A stretch of DNA of 6,645 nucleotides from Deltaproteobacteria bacterium RIFOXYA12_FULL_61_11 (lineage in GTDB: Bacteria; Bdellovibrionota_F; JAHFAK01; YA12-FULL-61-11). Under the pieces are notes generated by a model. It saw only the letters and a program-made list of their open reading frames with translations. It did no database searches and was not told the origin of the DNA. Shown one piece after another: positions 1-6,645 of the stretch; positions within the stretch are counted from its first letter, which is position 1, and each line of letters begins with the position of its first letter. The position numbers and the translations under genes were made by a program. The stretch spans positions 1 to 6,645 of the forward strand of contig MGSU01000254.1 of the NCBI GenBank assembly GCA_001799195.1, written 5' to 3'.

Positions 1-3000
1 CCGAAGGTCAGGGTCGGCGGGTCGTTCTCCGGGGTCACCCGCACCGTGCCGGTGGCCCTGGTCTCCGAAGCGGCGTCCCGAGCGGTCAGGGTGAAGCTGT
101 AGGGGGTTTCGGCGGTCACGTTCGGTGCGGTGCCGGTGACTCGGCGGTTGACGGTATCCAGGGTCATCCAAGCCGGACCCGAGACCCAACTGACCGTGAC
201 CGGTTCGTTGTCGAGGTCGGCGGTCTCGTAGGTACAGGAATAGGCGGCATCCTCGGCCACGGTCGCCGGACAAGAAACCAGGACGATGGTCGGGGGGTCA
301 TTGACCGGCAGGAGCACCACGGACCGGTCGCGCGTGGTCTGGGCCTGCCCGTCGCTGGCCGTGACCTGGAAGGTCAGCGTGGTCTGGGCGAGGGTGTTGG
401 GCACGGTGCCGATGAGGCGCGAGTTGGCCGCGTCGACGGTGAGCCAGTCCGGAGCGCCGGAGAGGGTGACGGTCGGCGTGGTGCCGTCCGGGTCCGTAGC
501 CGTGTAGGGACAGAGGTACTGCTGGTCCTCGGCGATCGAGGCCGGGCAGTTGCCGAAGCTCAGCACCGGGGCGTCGTTCTGCGGGTTGAGGACCAAGCTG
601 CGAGAGGACTCGACGTTCACGGTGCCGTCGCTGATCCGGACCGTGTAGTTCACGGTCTGCTGGGTGAGGATGTTGGGCACGGTGCCGGTCAGGCGGTTGG
701 CGCCGCCGTCGACCTGCAGCCAGGCCGGAGCGCCGATCAAGCTCACGGTCACGGTGTTGCCGTCGATATCAGTGAGCTGGTAAGTGCAGCTATAGGTCTC
801 GTCCTCGTCGGCCGCATCCGGGTTCGGGCAGTTCAGGACGATGGTCGGCGCGTCGTTCATCGGTTGCACCGTGAACCTGGTGCCGGCGCGGGTCTGCGCC
901 GTGCCGTCGCTGACCTCGAGCTGGTAGCTGTACTCAGTCGGGAGGAGGGTGTTGGGCGCGGTCCAGGACACTCGGCGGTTGACCGTGTCGAGGGTCATCC
1001 CGACCGGCCCGCCGATCAGGGTCACGGTGAGGGTGTCGCCGTCGAGGTCCGAGGTGGTGTAGGTACAAGTGTAGGCTGCGTCCTCGTTCACGGTCTGGGC
1101 GCATGGACCCAAGGTGATAGCCGGGGCATCGTTCACCGGTACCACGAGCACGCTCTGGGTGGCTGTGGTCGTGTTCTCACCGTCGTCGGCGGCGAGGGTG
1201 AAGCTCTCGGCGTGCTGAGCCACGATGTTCGGGACGGTCCAGGTGACTTGGCGGGTCGTGGTATTGAGGGTCATCCCGGCCGGGGCTGCGAGCATGGTCA
1301 CCGCGATGTTGCCCAGGGGCGTGTCATTATCGGTCAGGGTGTAACCGCAGGTGTAGAGTTGGTCTTCATCGATCGAGGTCACGCAGTCGTTGAAGCTGAT
1401 CAGCGGGGCGTCGTTGACCGCGACTGCGATGAGCGGCCGTTCTACGGTCACGGTGACCGTACCGTCGCCGACCAGCACGTCGAACGAGAAGTCCTGTTGC
1501 ACCGGATCGTTGGGTAGGTCGGGTACGGTCCAGGCGATTCGCCGGTTGACCGTATCCAGGGTCATGCCGCCGGGCTGGCCGGACAAGCTGACCGTGACGG
1601 GGTTCTCGTCGAGGTCAACCACCGTGTAGTTGCAGACATAGGCGGCGTTCTCGAGCACCGTGGTCGTGCAGTTCTGGAAGGTGATTGTCGGCGCGTCGTT
1701 GACCGGGAGGGCGTCGAAGGCCCCACCGGTTTGCGCCTCGGCGGTACCGGTACCGGTCTCGTCATTGGCCACGAGGACGAACTCGACCCGGGTCTGGGTG
1801 AGGGTGTTGGGCACCAGGTAGCTCACGCGCCGGTTAAGGGTGTCCAGGGACATGCCGGACGGACCGTCGGCGAGGGACACGGTTACGGGGTTGCCGTCGA
1901 GGTCGCCGACCTCGTAGTAGCAGGTGAAGACCTCATCCTCATCGACCGCGGCGGGACAATCGAGGAGCGCGATGGTGGGGCGATCGTTGACCGGCAGGGC
2001 CTGGACCGTTTGGGTCGCCCGCGTCTCCAAGACGCCGTCCTGGACCACGACCTCGTAGGTGATCGTGGTCGGGGTGAGGGTGTTGGGAACGTTCCAGAGC
2101 ACGCGCTGATTGGCAGGCTCGGCGATCATCCCGGTCGGGCCGCCGACCACGAACCAGGTCAGGGCATCGCCGTCGATGTCGGCGACCTGCACGGAGCAGG
2201 TGTATTGCTGGTCCTCGTCGATCGTCGCCGGGCAGTTCGAGAAGGTGAGGGTCGGTGCGTCGTTCACCGGCACCGCGATCACGGAGCGGCCGTAATCCTG
2301 CTGCACCGTGCCGTCTCCCACCGTGACCGAGAAGGGGACCTCAGTCTCGGCGAGGGTGTTGGGCACGGTCCAGACGATGCGGTTCTGGGCTTGGTCAACG
2401 GTCATTCCGGCAGGGCCCGTCGCCAGACTCACGGTGACGGCGTCGCCGTCGAGATCCTCGGTCTCGTAGGTGCAAACAAAGGTTGCATCCTCGAGTACCC
2501 GGTCGGCGCAGGAAACGAAGCGGAAGGTTGGCGCGTCGTTCACCGGCAGGACCTCGAAGGTCTGCTGGAAGCGCGGTTGCTCCTGGCCGTCGTCGAGCAC
2601 TATATAATAGATGATGTCGTGGGCGGTGCGCACGTTGGGCACGGGATAGAAGACGCGGTGGTTGACCAGGTCCAGGCTCATACCGAGGGGACCGCCGTCG
2701 AGGCTGGCCGTGACCAGATCGCCGTCGATGTCCTCGAGGGTGAAGGAACAACTGTAGATGGTGTCCTCGTTCGCCTCGACCGCGCAATCGTCGAAGACCA
2801 GGGTAGGGGCATCGTTGACCGGAAGCAGGGTCACGCTGCGCGGGACCTCGACCTGGGCCAACCCGTCGTCGAGCAGGAGGGTGAAGGTCTGGGTTTCTTG
2901 TTCCAGGACATTGGGTACTTGCCAGGAGATGGTGTCGTCCTCGAAGACCATGCCGGCCGGGCCGTCGAGCAGAGTGATGACCACGTCGTCGCCGTCGATG

Positions 3001-3914
3001 TCCATCGGTAACACGTCGCAGGTATAGAGCTCATCCTCGTCCGCGCTGCCGGCACAGTTCTCGAACCGCACCGCGGGCGCGTCGTTCACCGGTAGCACGG
3101 TCACGGTGTTGGGATACGTCCCGGAGAGTCGGCCGTCGCTGACCGTGAGGACGTAGCTCACCTCCATCGGCTCGATCGCGTTTGCAGCCCGCCAGCTCAC
3201 CCGGTTGGCGGCTTCGTCCAAGGTCATGCCGGCCGGGAAGTCGTCCAGACTGACGAAGACCTGGTCGCCGTCCGGGTCATCGGCCTCGTAGCTGCAACGG
3301 TAGGTCGCGTCCTCGGTGATGTCGGTGACGCAGTCGAGATAGCGCAGGGTGGGGGGATCGTTCATGGGCAGGGCGATCAGGTAGTTCCGTTCGCGATGTT
3401 CCACGCCCAGCACGTCCATGACGACGGTGTAGTTGACCTGGGTCGCGGTTTCGACGTTGGTGACCTGCCAGCTCACGGTCTGGGCTTCGCGGTCGAAGAG
3501 CATGCCCTCGGGGAAGTCCTCGAGCCAGAGGGACATCTCGTCCGGGATGCTGTCGTCGACGATGACGTAGCCGCACTCGTACCAGGTGTCTTCGTCAGCG
3601 GTCTGGGCGCAGTCCACGAATTCGAGGACCGGAGGATTGTTCGGGTCGTAGACGTGGATCGGCTGCTCCAGGGTGTCCTCGTCCCTGCCGTCGCTGACTT
3701 CGATGATGACGTTGTCCCAGCCAAAATCGTCGGCCTGGGGCGTCCAGGTGATCAGGCCGTCCTCGTCGATGGTCATGCCGTCAGGGGGGTCCTGACCGTT
3801 AATGCGTGTCAGGGTATAGGTCAGCGGGTCGCTGTCCTGATCGTGCGCCACGACCTGGCATTCCCAAGGCACGCCGACGGCCACCTCGGTCTCACAATCG
3901 AGCTCGGAGAAGAG
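1..3914 (-). repeat. Array of 14 complete ~93-residue cadherin/Ig-like repeats in gene B, plus start of a 15th
   Basis: Repeat units begin (5' end on the minus strand) at about 3914, 3629, 3350, 3074, 2804, 2528, 2252, 1976, 1688, 1403, 1121, 845, 566, 290 and 14; the last is cut by the edge. The period is 90-96 residues. Consensus order: T-(I/L)-x-F-x-(N/D)-C, then (E/D)-D-x-x-Y-x-C, then D-(L/I)-D-G-D, then P-A-G-M-T-L-D, then N-R-R-V-x-W-T-V-P-N, then (S/D)-D-G, ending L-P-V-N-D-A-P. The first cysteine of each complete unit is at residues 199, 294, 387, 479, 569, 661, 753, 845, 941, 1036, 1130, 1221, 1315 and 1407. The second is 12 residues later, or 14 in the unit at 845. The first two units are the most divergent. 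The three units at 845, 566 and 290 form a subtype with P-x-W-(L/M) and a Gly in place of the later Trp. Confidence 0.92.
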
Positions 3915-4490
3915 GGGCGGGCTGTTCTCGAACACGTCGACCGTGAGCTGAGTCACGGTGTTGTACTGGCCCTGCATGGTTACCACGTCCAGGACGTGGC
4001 GGCCGACCTGATCCTCGGTGGTGGCCCAATGGATCAATCCGGTCGCCGGATCGATGGTGAGACCAGCGGGCGGGTTGGCGATGGCGAAGGTGACCCCGTC
4101 CTCGCCCGAGACCGTGGTCAGGTCGCACTCATAGACCTCGCCGGCCTTGAGGCGCGAGAGACAATCTTCGGCGAGAGCCCGGAGGCCATCTTTTATCGAA
4201 CCTTCGTCGATGACATCGACGATGATCGTGCCCTGCTGCTTGGGCGGTTTGCCCGGATCCTCAGGGCGTTCCTGCGGATCTTGGCCCGGTTGGACCGGGG
4301 GTTTGTCTTGGGGATCGCCTCCCTCGGTCGGCGTGGGATCGATGGGTTGGTCGGGAACGATATCGATGGCGTCGGTGCTCAGGTCCTGCACCGAGGAGCC
4401 GGGGTCCTGGGCCACGAACTTCTTGTCGCCCTCGCAGGCGGTAAGTCCGAGCACCAGGATCGCAACCACGAGCACGTATAGGCTGTTCAT
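1..4490 (-). CDS. Giant tandem cadherin/Ig-like repeat surface lipoprotein (gene B), C-terminus beyond left edge
   Basis: An uninterrupted frame of 1496 codons runs from ATG at 4490-4488 to the left edge with no stop, so the protein is longer than seen. I chose this start because a purine-rich ribosome binding site lies 6 bases upstream and because the N-terminus is a lipoprotein signal ending in LTAC (Cys19). Residues 20-97 are a Pro/Asp/Gln-rich tether. Residues 98-192 form a divergent Ig-like domain of the He_PIG kind (PAGLTIDPATGLIHW). From residue 193 there are 14 complete repeats of about 93 residues, joined by VNDAP-type linkers. Most carry DEDxxYxC and DxDGD motifs, as in cadherin-like 'tandem-95' proteins. 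Known relatives are cell-surface adhesion or stalk proteins; such domains usually bind calcium between repeats. Function here is inferred as an outer-membrane-anchored stalk or adhesin. The unseen C-terminus may carry a vWA-like domain, as the upstream paralogue does. The frame and repeat family are seen directly; the ligand is unknown. Confidence 0.93.
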   Translation of the reverse strand, partial: MNSLYVLVVAILVLGLTACEGDKKFVAQDPGSSVQDLSTDAIDIVPDQPIDPTPTEGGDPQDKPPVQPGQDPQERPEDPGKPPKQQGTIIVDVIDEGSIKDGLRALAEDCLSRLKAGEVYECDLTTVSGEDGVTFAIANPPAGLTIDPATGLIHWATTEDQVGRHVLDVVTMQGQYNTVTQLTVDVFENSPPLFSELDCETEVAVGVPWECQVVAHDQDSDPLTYTLTRINGQDPPDGMTIDEDGLITWTPQADDFGWDNVIIEVSDGRDEDTLEQPIHVYDPNNPPVLEFVDCAQTADEDTWYECGYVIVDDSIPDEMSLWLEDFPEGMLFDREAQTVSWQVTNVETATQVNYTVVMDVLGVEHRERNYLIALPMNDPPTLRYLDCVTDITEDATYRCSYEADDPDGDQVFVSLDDFPAGMTLDEAANRVSWRAANAIEPMEVSYVLTVSDGRLSGTYPNTVTVLPVNDAPAVRFENCAGSADEDELYTCDVLPMDIDGDDVVITLLDGPAGMVFEDDTISWQVPNVLEQETQTFTLLLDDGLAQVEVPRSVTLLPVNDAPTLVFDDCAVEANEDTIYSCSFTLEDIDGDLVTASLDGGPLGMSLDLVNHRVFYPVPNVRTAHDIIYYIVLDDGQEQPRFQQTFEVLPVNDAPTFRFVSCADRVLEDATFVCTYETEDLDGDAVTVSLATGPAGMTVDQAQNRIVWTVPNTLAETEVPFSVTVGDGTVQQDYGRSVIAVPVNDAPTLTFSNCPATIDEDQQYTCSVQVADIDGDALTWFVVGGPTGMIAEPANQRVLWNVPNTLTPTTITYEVVVQDGVLETRATQTVQALPVNDRPTIALLDCPAAVDEDEVFTCYYEVGDLDGNPVTVSLADGPSGMSLDTLNRRVSYLVPNTLTQTRVEFVLVANDETGTGTAEAQTGGAFDALPVNDAPTITFQNCTTTVLENAAYVCNYTVVDLDENPVTVSLSGQPGGMTLDTVNRRIAWTVPDLPNDPVQQDFSFDVLVGDGTVTVTVERPLIAVAVNDAPLISFNDCVTSIDEDQLYTCGYTLTDNDTPLGNIAVTMLAAPAGMTLNTTTRQVTWTVPNIVAQHAESFTLAADDGENTTTATQSVLVVPVNDAPAITLGPCAQTVNEDAAYTCTYTTSDLDGDTLTVTLIGGPVGMTLDTVNRRVSWTAPNTLLPTEYSYQLEVSDGTAQTRAGTRFTVQPMNDAPTIVLNCPNPDAADEDETYSCTYQLTDIDGNTVTVSLIGAPAWLQVDGGANRLTGTVPNILTQQTVNYTVRISDGTVNVESSRSLVLNPQNDAPVLSFGNCPASIAEDQQYLCPYTATDPDGTTPTVTLSGAPDWLTVDAANSRLIGTVPNTLAQTTLTFQVTASDGQAQTTRDRSVVLLPVNDPPTIVLVSCPATVAEDAAYSCTYETADLDNEPVTVSWVSGPAWMTLDTVNRRVTGTAPNVTAETPYSFTLTARDAASETRATGTVRVTPENDPPTLTF
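3915..4199 (-). other. N-terminal divergent Ig-like (He_PIG-type) domain of gene B
   Basis: Residues 98-192 resemble the later repeats but are degenerate. They keep the cysteine pair (Cys110 and Cys122, 12 apart) and the PAGLTIDPATGLIHW motif, which is close to the He_PIG putative-Ig consensus. They lack the DxDGD calcium motif (VSGEDGV stands in its place) and end in ENSPP instead of VNDAP. As the membrane-proximal domain it probably caps the stalk. The assignment rests on motifs only. Confidence 0.7.
4200..4433 (-). other. Low-complexity Pro/Asp/Gln-rich tether of gene B
   Basis: Residues 20-97 follow the lipidated cysteine. The stretch from about 46 to 87 is rich in Pro, Asp, Gln, Gly and Lys (for example PDQPIDPTPTEGGDPQ and QPGQDPQERPEDPGKPPKQQ) and has no predicted fold. 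This is typical of the flexible spacer between a lipid anchor and the first folded domain of an exposed lipoprotein. It contains no cysteine, in contrast with the repeats that follow. Confidence 0.75.
4434..4490 (-). other. Lipoprotein signal peptide with lipobox LTAC
   Basis: Residues 1-19 of gene B read MNSLYVLVVAILVLGLTAC: a short polar start with no lysine or arginine, a hydrophobic core (residues 4-16), then L-T-A-C. This fits the signal peptidase II lipobox, with Cys19 as the lipidated residue. Residue 20 is Glu rather than Asp, which in the enterobacterial rule would favour outer-membrane sorting, though that rule does not transfer reliably to other phyla. The lack of a positive charge in the n-region is slightly unusual. 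The Cys19 codon is at 4434-4436. Confidence 0.88.
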
Positions 4491-4495
4491 CGCAC

Positions 4496-4503
4496 ACCCC
4501 CTC
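4496..4503 (-). promoter_or_regulatory. Ribosome binding site of gene B
   Basis: On the minus strand the sequence GAGGGGGT ends 5 bases before the ATG at 4490, so its last G is 6 bases away. It is a purine-rich, slightly off-consensus Shine-Dalgarno site. It supports this start over the internal methionines, which mostly lie in the repeated P-x-G-M motif. Confidence 0.65.
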
Positions 4504-4505
4504 GA

Positions 4506-4520
4506 GCAAGCCGGTCTTGC
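4506..4520 (-). promoter_or_regulatory. Small leader stem-loop next to the gene B ribosome binding site
   Basis: The inverted repeat GCAAG-(5 bases)-CTTGC gives a 5-bp stem in the transcript, ending 2 bases before the ribosome binding site. The GCAA of the first arm could instead pair with an upstream TTGC (TTGCGTTGCAA, 4517-4527), so two exclusive foldings are possible. If the candidate promoter at 4528-4555 is right, transcription would start near 4521 and this hairpin would sit at the very 5' end of the mRNA, where such stems can protect a message. Short stems arise by chance, so confidence is low. Confidence 0.3.
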
Positions 4521-4527
4521 AACGCAA

Positions 4528-4555
4528 AAAATATGCCTCGCATTGACCGCGTTAA
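4528..4555 (-). promoter_or_regulatory. Candidate sigma-70-like promoter for gene B
   Basis: Reading the minus strand, TTAACG (4555-4550, 4 of 6 matches to TTGACA) is followed after 16 bases by TATTTT (4533-4528, 4 of 6 matches to TATAAT). It lies in the only AT-rich patch of the window and would give a leader of about 30 bases. An AT-only inverted repeat, TTATT-ACAG-AATAA (4563-4576), sits just upstream and could be part of an upstream element or an operator. The match is moderate and the host's sigma factors are unknown. Confidence 0.4.
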
Positions 4556-4788
4556 CCTTTCGTTATTACAGAATAATAAAATGCTCTCCGCCGGGCTGAG
4601 CAGCAATGGAGCAGGTCATTGTACGGCAGTGCCGAAGGTCAGCTCACCCAAGGGCTGCACCTACCTCTACCTTTTCCTCGATGCTCCTTTAAGGATCAAC
4701 CCGGAGAACAGCGGACGGATAGTAGCAGCCCTCATCGATAGCTGCAAGCGAGGTGGAACAGGGGGATGGCGGCGGGTGGGGAGAGGGC

Positions 4789-6645
4789 TTATTCGGCTTG
4801 GTACTCGTAATAGAGGGCGAGTTCGAGCTCGGAGAAGTAATAGGCCACCGGGATAGTCACCTGGACCGTGACCGCATCGAGCAGCTCATGGATCAGGAGG
4901 ACCGGCTCGGGCAACGACACGCCGTCCACCGCGGTCAGCTCGACGCTCAGGGTCTCGGGAACCGGAGCGTGCTCGAGCAGTATCTCGATCTCTGTCTCGG
5001 GGATGGTGCCGCCCAGGACTTCCATGCCGTCGCCGATATTCACGGTGTTGAGTTTGATGGAGAGCAGGTCGATGAGGTGAGCGTTGAAGTCAGGGTCGGC
5101 ATCGTCGAGGTTGAGGTCGCCGAGGGCATACTTGATGGCCTGTTTGTACCCCCGACCGGTCTGGTCCTCGGCCCCCAGACCGAGTTGGACGTAATAGGGG
5201 CTGCCCGGCTCGAGGTTCTTGTAGAAGATACCGCCGAGATTGATCGGCTGGTCGCCCTTCACCGCGACGAGCTTGTCGTAGATGGCCTCTACGGTCAGGT
5301 TGCGCCGGTCGAGGGTCTTGTCAGCGTCGGGCAGTGCGGAGGGAAAACAGTCGCGCAGGTAGGCGGGCAGCTCCTCGAGATGGCTGTCGGTGTCGTCGCC
5401 ATAGGGGTTGGTCGGGGAGTAGTTAGTGCGGTAGCAGATGTCGTTCTCCTCGGCCAGGTAGATCACCGTCAAACCCGCGTCCGGTCTGAAGAAACGGTCG
5501 AGATCGACCAGGTCCGGATCGCTCTGGACCGTACCTGCCGCGCGCGCGGCGAGGAGATCGTCGAGCGCCTTGTTCAGCGAGAACAACCCGGCATCACCGC
5601 CGTCGGGCGAGGACTTCGAGGTGCTGGTAAGCCGGGACTGGAAATTGCCCAAGGTCTCCCGGGTCAGGATGCGTTCGTTCCCTCCCGCGGCATAGAGTCG
5701 GCCGGCATACCGGCCCCCGTCATGGGCCAGGAGCAGAGCAACCTGGAACTCGTTCTGGAGTTCGAGTTGGTCGATGAGGCGTTCGATGTTGTCACCTACG
5801 CCCTGGGTGATCCAACTCTTGGAACCCGAGGTTTCCATGACGAAGAGGATGTCGGTCTTGAGCGAGGTGTGGGCGGGCACCAGGGCTGCCTGGGTCGCCG
5901 GTACGTTGCCCTCGCTGGCCACGATGAGCGAGAAGGTCTCGCTGTCGTTGGCCTCGCCGTCGCTGACCGTGACCGTGATCCCGGGGTAGAGGCCGCCGTC
6001 GTCGTCGAACGGCGACAGGGTGATGGTCCTGGCTCCCTGGTCGAAGGTGGCCCAATTGGGTAGGCCGGTCACCGAGAAGGTCAGGGCATCGCCGTCCTGG
6101 TCCGTGGCCGAGAGGGTAAAGGTCAAGATCGCCTCGGTCTCGACGGTCTGGTCCCCGATGGGGGCGAGCACGGGCGGGTGGTTGACGTGCAAGACCGTGA
6201 AGCTCCGTTCGAAGGGCAGGACCACGGTAGCGTCGTCCACGGTCAGGGTGAAGCTCCGGGGGGTATCCTGGGTCAAGCGAGGTGAGCGGTACCGCACCGT
6301 CTGGGCAGCGGGGTCGTGGGACATACCGTCGGGTCCGGCGAAGAGGACCACGGTCAAGGCATTGCCGTCGATGTCGGCCGTGGTGTAGCGGCACACGAAC
6401 TCCTGGTCCTCGGGCACCGTGGCCGGGCAATCGGTGAAGGTCAGGGTCGGCGGATCGTTGACCGGGGTCACCGTGACCGACCGGCTCGCCCGGACCTCGA
6501 CCTGACCGTCACTTGCCGCCACCTCGAAGGTGACCTCGTGCTGCGTAACCACGTTGGGTACGGTCCAGGTCAGGGTGCGGGTGACGGCGTCGTGGGTCAT
6601 GCCTTGGGGCCCGAAGGCCAGCCGGGAGGTGATCGCGTTGCCGTC
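4789..6645 (-). CDS. Tandem cadherin/Ig-like repeat protein with C-terminal vWA-like domain (gene A), N-terminus beyond right edge
   Basis: The frame is open from the right edge to a TAA at 4791-4789, giving the last 618 residues. The ATG at 6600-6598 is not the start: codons continue upstream without a stop, and this Met is the repeat motif residue (GPQGM). Order of domains: end of one repeat (residues 1-66, starting DGNAITS and ending VNDPP); a full repeat with cysteines at residues 73 and 85 (67-158, ending VNHPP); a third repeat without cysteines (159-244); a vWA-like domain beginning TDILFVMETSGS (from about 263); and a beta-rich tail ending ELALYYEYQAE. vWA domains bind proteins through a metal at a DxSxS site; here it reads ETSGS. 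The protein is probably secreted or surface-bound, with the repeats as stalk and the vWA-like part as head. It is the upstream paralogue of the lipoprotein gene that follows it. The repeats and vWA-like fold are well supported; the ligand and anchoring are unknown. Confidence 0.92.
   Translation of the reverse strand, partial: DGNAITSRLAFGPQGMTHDAVTRTLTWTVPNVVTQHEVTFEVAASDGQVEVRASRSVTVTPVNDPPTLTFTDCPATVPEDQEFVCRYTTADIDGNALTVVLFAGPDGMSHDPAAQTVRYRSPRLTQDTPRSFTLTVDDATVVLPFERSFTVLHVNHPPVLAPIGDQTVETEAILTFTLSATDQDGDALTFSVTGLPNWATFDQGARTITLSPFDDDGGLYPGITVTVSDGEANDSETFSLIVASEGNVPATQAALVPAHTSLKTDILFVMETSGSKSWITQGVGDNIERLIDQLELQNEFQVALLLAHDGGRYAGRLYAAGGNERILTRETLGNFQSRLTSTSKSSPDGGDAGLFSLNKALDDLLAARAAGTVQSDPDLVDLDRFFRPDAGLTVIYLAEENDICYRTNYSPTNPYGDDTDSHLEELPAYLRDCFPSALPDADKTLDRRNLTVEAIYDKLVAVKGDQPINLGGIFYKNLEPGSPYYVQLGLGAEDQTGRGYKQAIKYALGDLNLDDADPDFNAHLIDLLSIKLNTVNIGDGMEVLGGTIPETEIEILLEHAPVPETLSVELTAVDGVSLPEPVLLIHELLDAVTVQVTIPVAYYFSELELALYYEYQAE
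5026..5859 (-). other. von Willebrand factor A-like domain of gene A with degenerate MIDAS
   Basis: Counting from the window edge, residues 263-540 begin with the first vWA strand, KTDILFVMETSGS. The hydrophobic strand and S-x-S match the usual DIxFVxDxSGS pattern, but the first metal ligand Asp is Glu271 (codon 5833-5835). A following helix (NIERLIDQLEL), a second strand (FQVALLLAHD) and a later strand (GLTVIYLAEEND) fit a vWA fold; the acidic EEND recalls the DEDD segment seen in vWA-like proteins of Bdellovibrio-type bacteria. Cys404 and Cys433, the only cysteines after the repeats, flank a Pro/Asp-rich loop and could form a disulphide. The beta-rich tail (4792-5025) may pack on this domain. 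Confidence is good for the fold and moderate for metal binding. Confidence 0.72.
5914..6645 (-). repeat. C-terminal end of the gene A repeat array: one partial and two complete units
   Basis: The partial unit spans 6645-6448 and the first full unit 6447-6172. The last unit spans 6171-5914. The full unit at 6447 has the same pattern as gene B (TDC, PEDxxFVC, DIDGN, GPDGM). The last unit starts VLAPIGDQ, has DQDGD and LPNWATFD, and lacks both cysteines. It looks like a generic He_PIG/cadherin-like domain that ends the array before the vWA-like head. The array probably extends further right, since the partial unit opens mid-repeat. Confidence 0.88.

Follow-up and report, generated by a model that had tools for sequence, protein, structure and literature searches.

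Tryptophan at one hairpin site excludes an aromatic residue at its partner site in cadherin-like repeats of the He_PIG/tandem-95 group

Results and discussion

Two positions on one hairpin of cadherin-like repeat units from the He_PIG/tandem-95 group form a directly coupled pair. Tryptophan at the first (site 1) was never accompanied by an aromatic residue at the second (site 2), and the repeats have switched repeatedly between a form with Gly at site 1 and an aromatic at site 2 and a form with Trp at site 1 and Gly at site 2. This coupled pair is robust and lies in a known domain family. The coupling itself is apparently undescribed: no published description of a reciprocal Trp/Gly coupling was found in the literature covered, most of which lies outside subscription journals. 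Paired evolution of two residues is otherwise a familiar kind of protein behaviour. The initial annotation of this DNA had noticed the swapped pairs and proposed that one core aromatic is supplied from either of two neighbouring strands; our results confirmed the observation and partly supported the interpretation.

Repeat units in the window

The window, i.e. the whole stretch of DNA analysed here, comprises all 6,645 bases of one contig (C254) from an assembly of 4.64 Mb in 342 contigs, and carries genes A and B (Table 1). Both belong to family He_PIG (PF05345, cut-off 24 bits), gene B with 253.2 bits over 11 stretches (E 1.7e-76) and gene A with 57.5 bits. Gene B is likewise a member of the tandem-95 repeat family (NF012211; 129.7 bits for a cut-off of 90, 12 stretches, E 3e-38); gene A, of which about 2.5 units are visible, scored 41.0 bits, under that cut-off. 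Most window units have DLDGD or DIDGD in the loop that joins strands B and C, an acidic D-x-D sequence that places them in the calcium type. Judged from sequence and model, these are calcium-type cadherin-like (He_PIG/tandem-95/CADG) beta-sandwich domains, with calcium binding as a prediction.

Gene B starts (4420-4490, minus strand) with a lipoprotein-like signal ending in LTAC, a lipobox read by eye, so that its product is probably a lipid-anchored surface protein. Most units of both genes contain two cysteines (C-P-x...ED-x-x-Y-x-C; alignment columns 6 and 18), which are absent from the last gene A unit and elsewhere probably form a disulfide between strands A and B. Gene A ends in 365 residues (4789-5886, minus strand) that begin with DILFVMETSGS, by eye similar to a von Willebrand A type strand; they gave no Pfam match (E up to 10) and no convincing match among solved structures (best E 0.83).

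Table 1. Genes and repeat units of the window, with the residues at sites 1 and 2
Feature	Coordinates	Strand	Remarks
Gene A	4789..6645	-	He_PIG/tandem-95 units, then C-terminal part of about 365 aa without known family; 5' end cut by contig end
Gene A unit 1 (partial), G/W	6448..6645	-	From translation; hand-counted codons: site 1 Gly 6601-6603, site 2 Trp 6565-6567
Gene A unit 2, G/Y (PDGM...RY)	6172..6447	-	From translation and alignment
Gene A unit 3, W/L (PNWA...TL)	5887..6171	-	Resembles FA/TF unit of the gene on contig C310
Gene B	3..4490	-	Lipoprotein-like N-terminus (LTAC) and 15 units; 3' side runs off contig end
Gene B unit 1, GL/HW	3915..4175	-	From translation and alignment
Gene B units 2-11	1122..3914	-	Site 1 Gly, site 2 Trp or Tyr in all
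Gene B unit 12, GM/SW	846..1121	-	Site 1 codon 999-1001 (GGG), site 2 codon 963-965 (TGG)
Gene B unit 13, WL/TG	567..845	-	Site 1 codon 720-722 (TGG), site 2 codon 684-686 (GGC)
Gene B unit 14, WL/IG	291..566	-	Site 1 codon 444-446, site 2 codon 408-410
Gene B unit 15, WM/TG	15..290	-	Site 1 codon 168-170, site 2 codon 132-134
Gene B units 12 (G/W) and 13 (W/G)	567..1121	-	Tandem modelled with AlphaFold, mean pLDDT 96.3

Translation and alignment of the units bore out all 18 residue pairs as initially read. With site 1 as the first letter and site 2 as the last, they are, in gene B order, GL/HW, GM/TW, GM/SW (three times), GM/FY, GM/VW, GM/LW, GM/SY, GM/AW, GM/TW, GM/SW, WL/TG, WL/IG and WM/TG, and in gene A GM/TW, GM/RY and WA/TL. 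The alternation thus holds in 18 of 18 units (14 Gly/aromatic, three Trp/Gly and one Trp/Leu). Gene B has the three W/G units announced as its last ones; they are the last visible three, since the gene runs off the contig end. The distance between the sites is 12 residues in the majority of units; gene B units 2 and 5 have 11 and 10, respectively. Treated as independent, the 18 units give p = 3e-4 in a 2x2 table. Yet they are duplicates of one another, with about five state changes among the 55 units of this genome (hereafter the own genome), so that the window alone proves little.

Distribution of residue pairs

For the test, 1,199 distinct units were assembled; besides the own genome, their sources were genomes belonging to at least five other phyla. 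Loci were drawn from the own genome, from a genome scan whose query lacked the two sites, and from searches centred on loci of other phyla (Verrucomicrobiota, Chloroflexota, Pseudomonadota, Bacteroidota and one further phylum); the set searched included two genomes of the own phylum. Units were located with a profile built on 166 seeds, with both sites and a third column masked. Seeds called by Pfam were used because earlier profiles, based only on the window, had strayed into other cadherin-type repeats.

Among the 299 units with Trp at site 1, site 2 was Gly in 283 and another non-aromatic residue in 16; none had an aromatic, where 176 were expected. This Trp/aromatic intermediate was likewise absent after down-weighting of relatives at 80, 60, 50 and 40% identity (166, 101, 46 and 10.5 expected, respectively). 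Units with Gly at site 1 displayed an aromatic at site 2 in 417 cases, Gly in 115 and other residues in 20; the corresponding figures for the remaining site 1 residues were 275, 6 and 45. Phe or Tyr at site 1 was recorded in 22 units, 14 with an aromatic at site 2 and eight with another residue, which indicates that two smaller rings can coexist. The own genome contributes three Phe/Phe or Tyr/Phe units, and a Phe/Phe unit on contig C310 is a close counterpart of the Trp/Leu unit in gene A. Limited to a single unit from each of the 198 open reading frames, the set contained 57 Gly/aromatic, 47 Gly/Gly, 38 Trp/Gly and no Trp/aromatic units.

The Gly/Gly combination was unevenly distributed. Calcium-type units, defined by the D-x-D loop (n = 909), comprised 242 Trp/Gly, 14 Trp/other, no Trp/aromatic, 356 Gly/aromatic and four Gly/Gly units, whereas 111 of the 290 shorter units without this loop were Gly/Gly. 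The many-genome alignment suggested as a check by the initial annotation therefore had a double outcome, with Trp/aromatic missing throughout and Gly/Gly common in the units without the calcium-type loop. With 115 Gly/Gly and 14 aromatic/aromatic units in the whole set, "exactly one aromatic" per unit had to be abandoned as a family rule. The safe rule is that no aromatic at site 2 accompanies a site 1 Trp, and that smaller rings can coexist.

Two sequence variants were recorded besides these classes. Loci from the phylum of genome G009 (e.g. L158) displayed an LPEGW...W form, with Trp one residue after site 1 and a second Trp at site 2; this is a different packing, and 135 such units with an aromatic at site 2 were counted. 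Own-genome loci L032, L039 and L042 combine Phe or Tyr at site 1 with Leu, Val or Phe at site 2 (LPAFATL...TVEPG).

Direct coupling

By mean-field direct-coupling analysis, the site 1-site 2 pair ranked first of 2,628 column pairs (z 11.4), with terms of +5.06 for W-G, +2.69 for G-W, -1.75 for W-W and -0.79 for G-G. Restricting the analysis to calcium-type units left it in first place; it came third when the own genome was omitted and second when each frame contributed a single unit. The strict covariation initially claimed thus persists as direct coupling and as the absence of Trp/aromatic units, and not as a family-wide count of one aromatic. The neighbouring pair 41-52 ranked high as well: Leu at column 41 accompanies Gly at site 2, and Ala or Met at column 41 accompanies an aromatic there. 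A register control was provided by Trp at column 41, one residue after site 1: site 2 was aromatic in 135 of 136 such units, which supports a position-specific coupling.

The relationship is asymmetric. Of the units with Trp at site 1, 95% had Gly at site 2, whereas only 60% of those with an aromatic at site 2 had Gly at site 1, the other residues accepted being Ala, Asn, Asp, Glu and Ser. This suggests that site 1, except when it is Trp, is turned towards solvent, and that site 2 belongs to the core, where the side chain would have to vanish to make room for the site 1 ring. Columns 41, 62, 66, 16 and 80 also differ between the two classes, so that outside the own genome the pair is part of a wider core repacking; within the own genome, columns 16, 18 and 34 barely differ between classes.

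Two further ideas were discarded. Column 32 as a third aromatic seat amounted to a weak tendency, Trp reaching a weighted 18% in Gly/Gly units against 4-5% elsewhere, and the column being mostly Tyr or Phe there as in the other classes. The residue sets G+M+W and W+L+G have similar side-chain volumes; as a general rule, volume conservation failed, since G/A/W, G/W/W and G/L/G units differ widely by commonly known side-chain volumes.

Position in the fold

Units 12 and 13 of gene B, one of each form, were modelled in tandem with AlphaFold2 (18 relatives in the alignment), which gave a pLDDT of 96.3 and seven to eight strands per unit. Strand D of unit 12 comprises residues 43-45 and strand E residues 50-54; their equivalents in unit 13 are 136-138 and 143-147. 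Site 2 (Trp53, Gly146) falls within strand E, and site 1 (Gly41, Trp134) precedes strand D of that hairpin by two residues. A model of units 13-14 made without alignment (pLDDT 68) agreed in its strand limits. The proposal that the aromatic comes from either of two neighbouring strands was partly supported, both sites being on one D-E hairpin in a confident model, except that site 1 precedes strand D and is not a regular strand residue. The modelled units conform to the seven-strand Greek-key sandwich of cadherin-type domains (VIA-align Z 9.9-11.5 to protocadherin/cadherin tandems and 10.5 to SraP), and SraP was also its best Foldseek match (E 4.7e-9). We infer that the site 1 Trp and the site 2 ring fill one pocket. 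In molecular dynamics of mouse alpha-dystroglycan, which has the W/G form, Trp549 on the D strand was mostly buried (18 A2 exposed) and packed on Ile591, a burial taken from a model and not from a crystal structure of that domain (PMC4117597).

Counterparts of both forms exist in known systems. The initial statement that the two motif forms occur in He_PIG-type domains was correct: W/G and G/W, together with G/G, were found among He_PIG (PF05345)/tandem-95 (NF012211) matches of other genomes, from which most window units differ by their paired cysteines (C...Y-x-C) in strands A and B. Alpha-dystroglycan has W/G at the same positions of its CADG domains (PDB 1u2c, 9c3c; LPSWLHWD...LEGLP, KSWVQFN...MYGLP), but this is an animal protein and W/G is the only form seen there. 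Three W/G hairpins (PDWL...LSGMP, PDWL...LSGTP, PAWL...LSGTP) occur in the C-terminal domains of fucoidanase MfFcnA4 (PDB 6dms, 6dlh), which was among the best solved sequence matches and ranked third and fourth in Foldseek; these are, however, part of an enzyme, and no G/W units appeared in the alignments examined. The cadherin-like domains of SraP (PDB 4m00, 4m03) share the fold and the hairpin motif but have the G/G form, with neither aromatic (LPSGLSYD...IIGTP, LPSGLTFD...ISGTP). Immunoglobulin domains are anchored by a single conserved core Trp in strand C, and in fnIII domains the location of the folding nucleus within the core is not fixed (PMC12051499, PMC2965948). A single core Trp is common to Ig domains and window units; Ig and fnIII differ as superfamilies, whereas in the window the Trp position moves between sister repeats of one gene.

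Changes of form among repeats

Classes were clustered on both trees. On a tree of 462 units, 363 of them classed, 18 class changes were counted against 108 with shuffled labels, and the own-genome tree (55 units) required five against 11.7. Well-supported branches forced only two changes in each tree, and a sign test on independent pairs had only two well-supported pairs to work with, too few for significance. The switch has therefore occurred at least twice in well-supported branches, and about five times in the own genome on the best tree.

Individual cases are nonetheless explicit. Gene B units 12 and 15 have the same hairpin protein sequence TLDTVNRRV and share 42 of 54 bases over the hairpin region, yet differ at both sites. 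On contig C310, a 3,190-residue frame (L034) is paralogous to gene B but longer. The two correspond almost unit by unit, with 76-82% identity where units match best, and in L034 the W/G units are more numerous than in gene B and interleaved. One L034 unit, L034_1486 (WI/FG), groups with G/W units (support 86) and has their loop insertion. Locus L288, from the Verrucomicrobiota search, contains separate W/G units in G/W-like surroundings, and 14 frames contain both classes. Phage records gave no match.

Interpretation

The explanation that we favour, and consider probable, is one core space at the D-E hairpin that is filled from strand E or, if site 2 is Gly, by Trp of site 1, two bulky rings being excluded. 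Site 1 lies before strand D, and site 2 would point inwards from strand E. The core would have one bulky space near its D-E end, occupied in one form by Trp, Tyr or Phe of site 2 while site 1 holds Gly or some other residue that is small or polar. In the other form, Gly at site 2 would make room for the site 1 ring, and Trp would fold in from the edge strand. Trp/aromatic units would be eliminated because two bulky rings do not fit. The constraint on the pair is presumably folding stability. Gly/Gly units fold with neither aromatic, so that the space is not always filled by these sites.

The same pairs could have been inherited from two old subfamilies, each with its own motif, and no physical exclusion would then be needed. 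The marked clustering on trees, the mere two changes forced by well-supported branches and the many core columns that differ between classes all fit such a history. It accounts poorly for the pair heading a direct-coupling list, as the method discounts indirect correlation, for sister units of one gene with both forms on an otherwise unchanged hairpin, for the 14 mixed frames and the separate W/G set of L288, for a Trp/aromatic count of 0 in 299, and for own-genome classes that hardly differ at columns 16, 18 and 34; we hold shared ancestry alone to be rather improbable. Somewhat less probable still is a cross-strand glycine rescue, in which the aromatic covers the backbone of a Gly on the neighbouring strand (CH-pi) and one shared pocket is not required. 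Aromatic-glycine contacts have been described as stabilising sheets (PMC2656535), and Gly indeed lies opposite the site 1 Trp in 283 of 299 units; but of 692 units with an aromatic at site 2, 275 have a residue other than Gly at site 1, and Gly/Gly units lack any rescuer at either site, so that a Gly at site 1 needs no aromatic partner.

An artefact of alignment or search, with the profile forcing any Trp into site 1 and thereby creating the exclusion, appears very improbable. In its favour, the HMM that assigned the columns was built from related seeds, many of which had been picked out by the He_PIG model of Pfam. Both columns were masked in that profile, however, Trp at column 41 was kept apart and coexists with site 2 aromatics (135 of 136), and the same pairs can be read by eye both in the window and in seed alignments without masking. 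Returning to the shared core space, a bolder version would make the pair a two-residue bistable switch, whose coordinated change flips core packing repeatedly between sister repeats, with a forbidden Trp/Trp intermediate. We regard this as a tentative idea and somewhat doubtful; if true, evolution would pass through a Gly/Gly or Phe/Phe state.

Significance

The finding leaves the presumed role of these proteins unchanged. It offers a clean and readily testable epistatic pair in a protein core: as both states occur in the same fold, and often in the same gene, the cost of W/G, G/W, G/G and W/W could be measured in one background. It would also aid alignment, subdivision and motif reading in the very large He_PIG/CADG/tandem-95 group.
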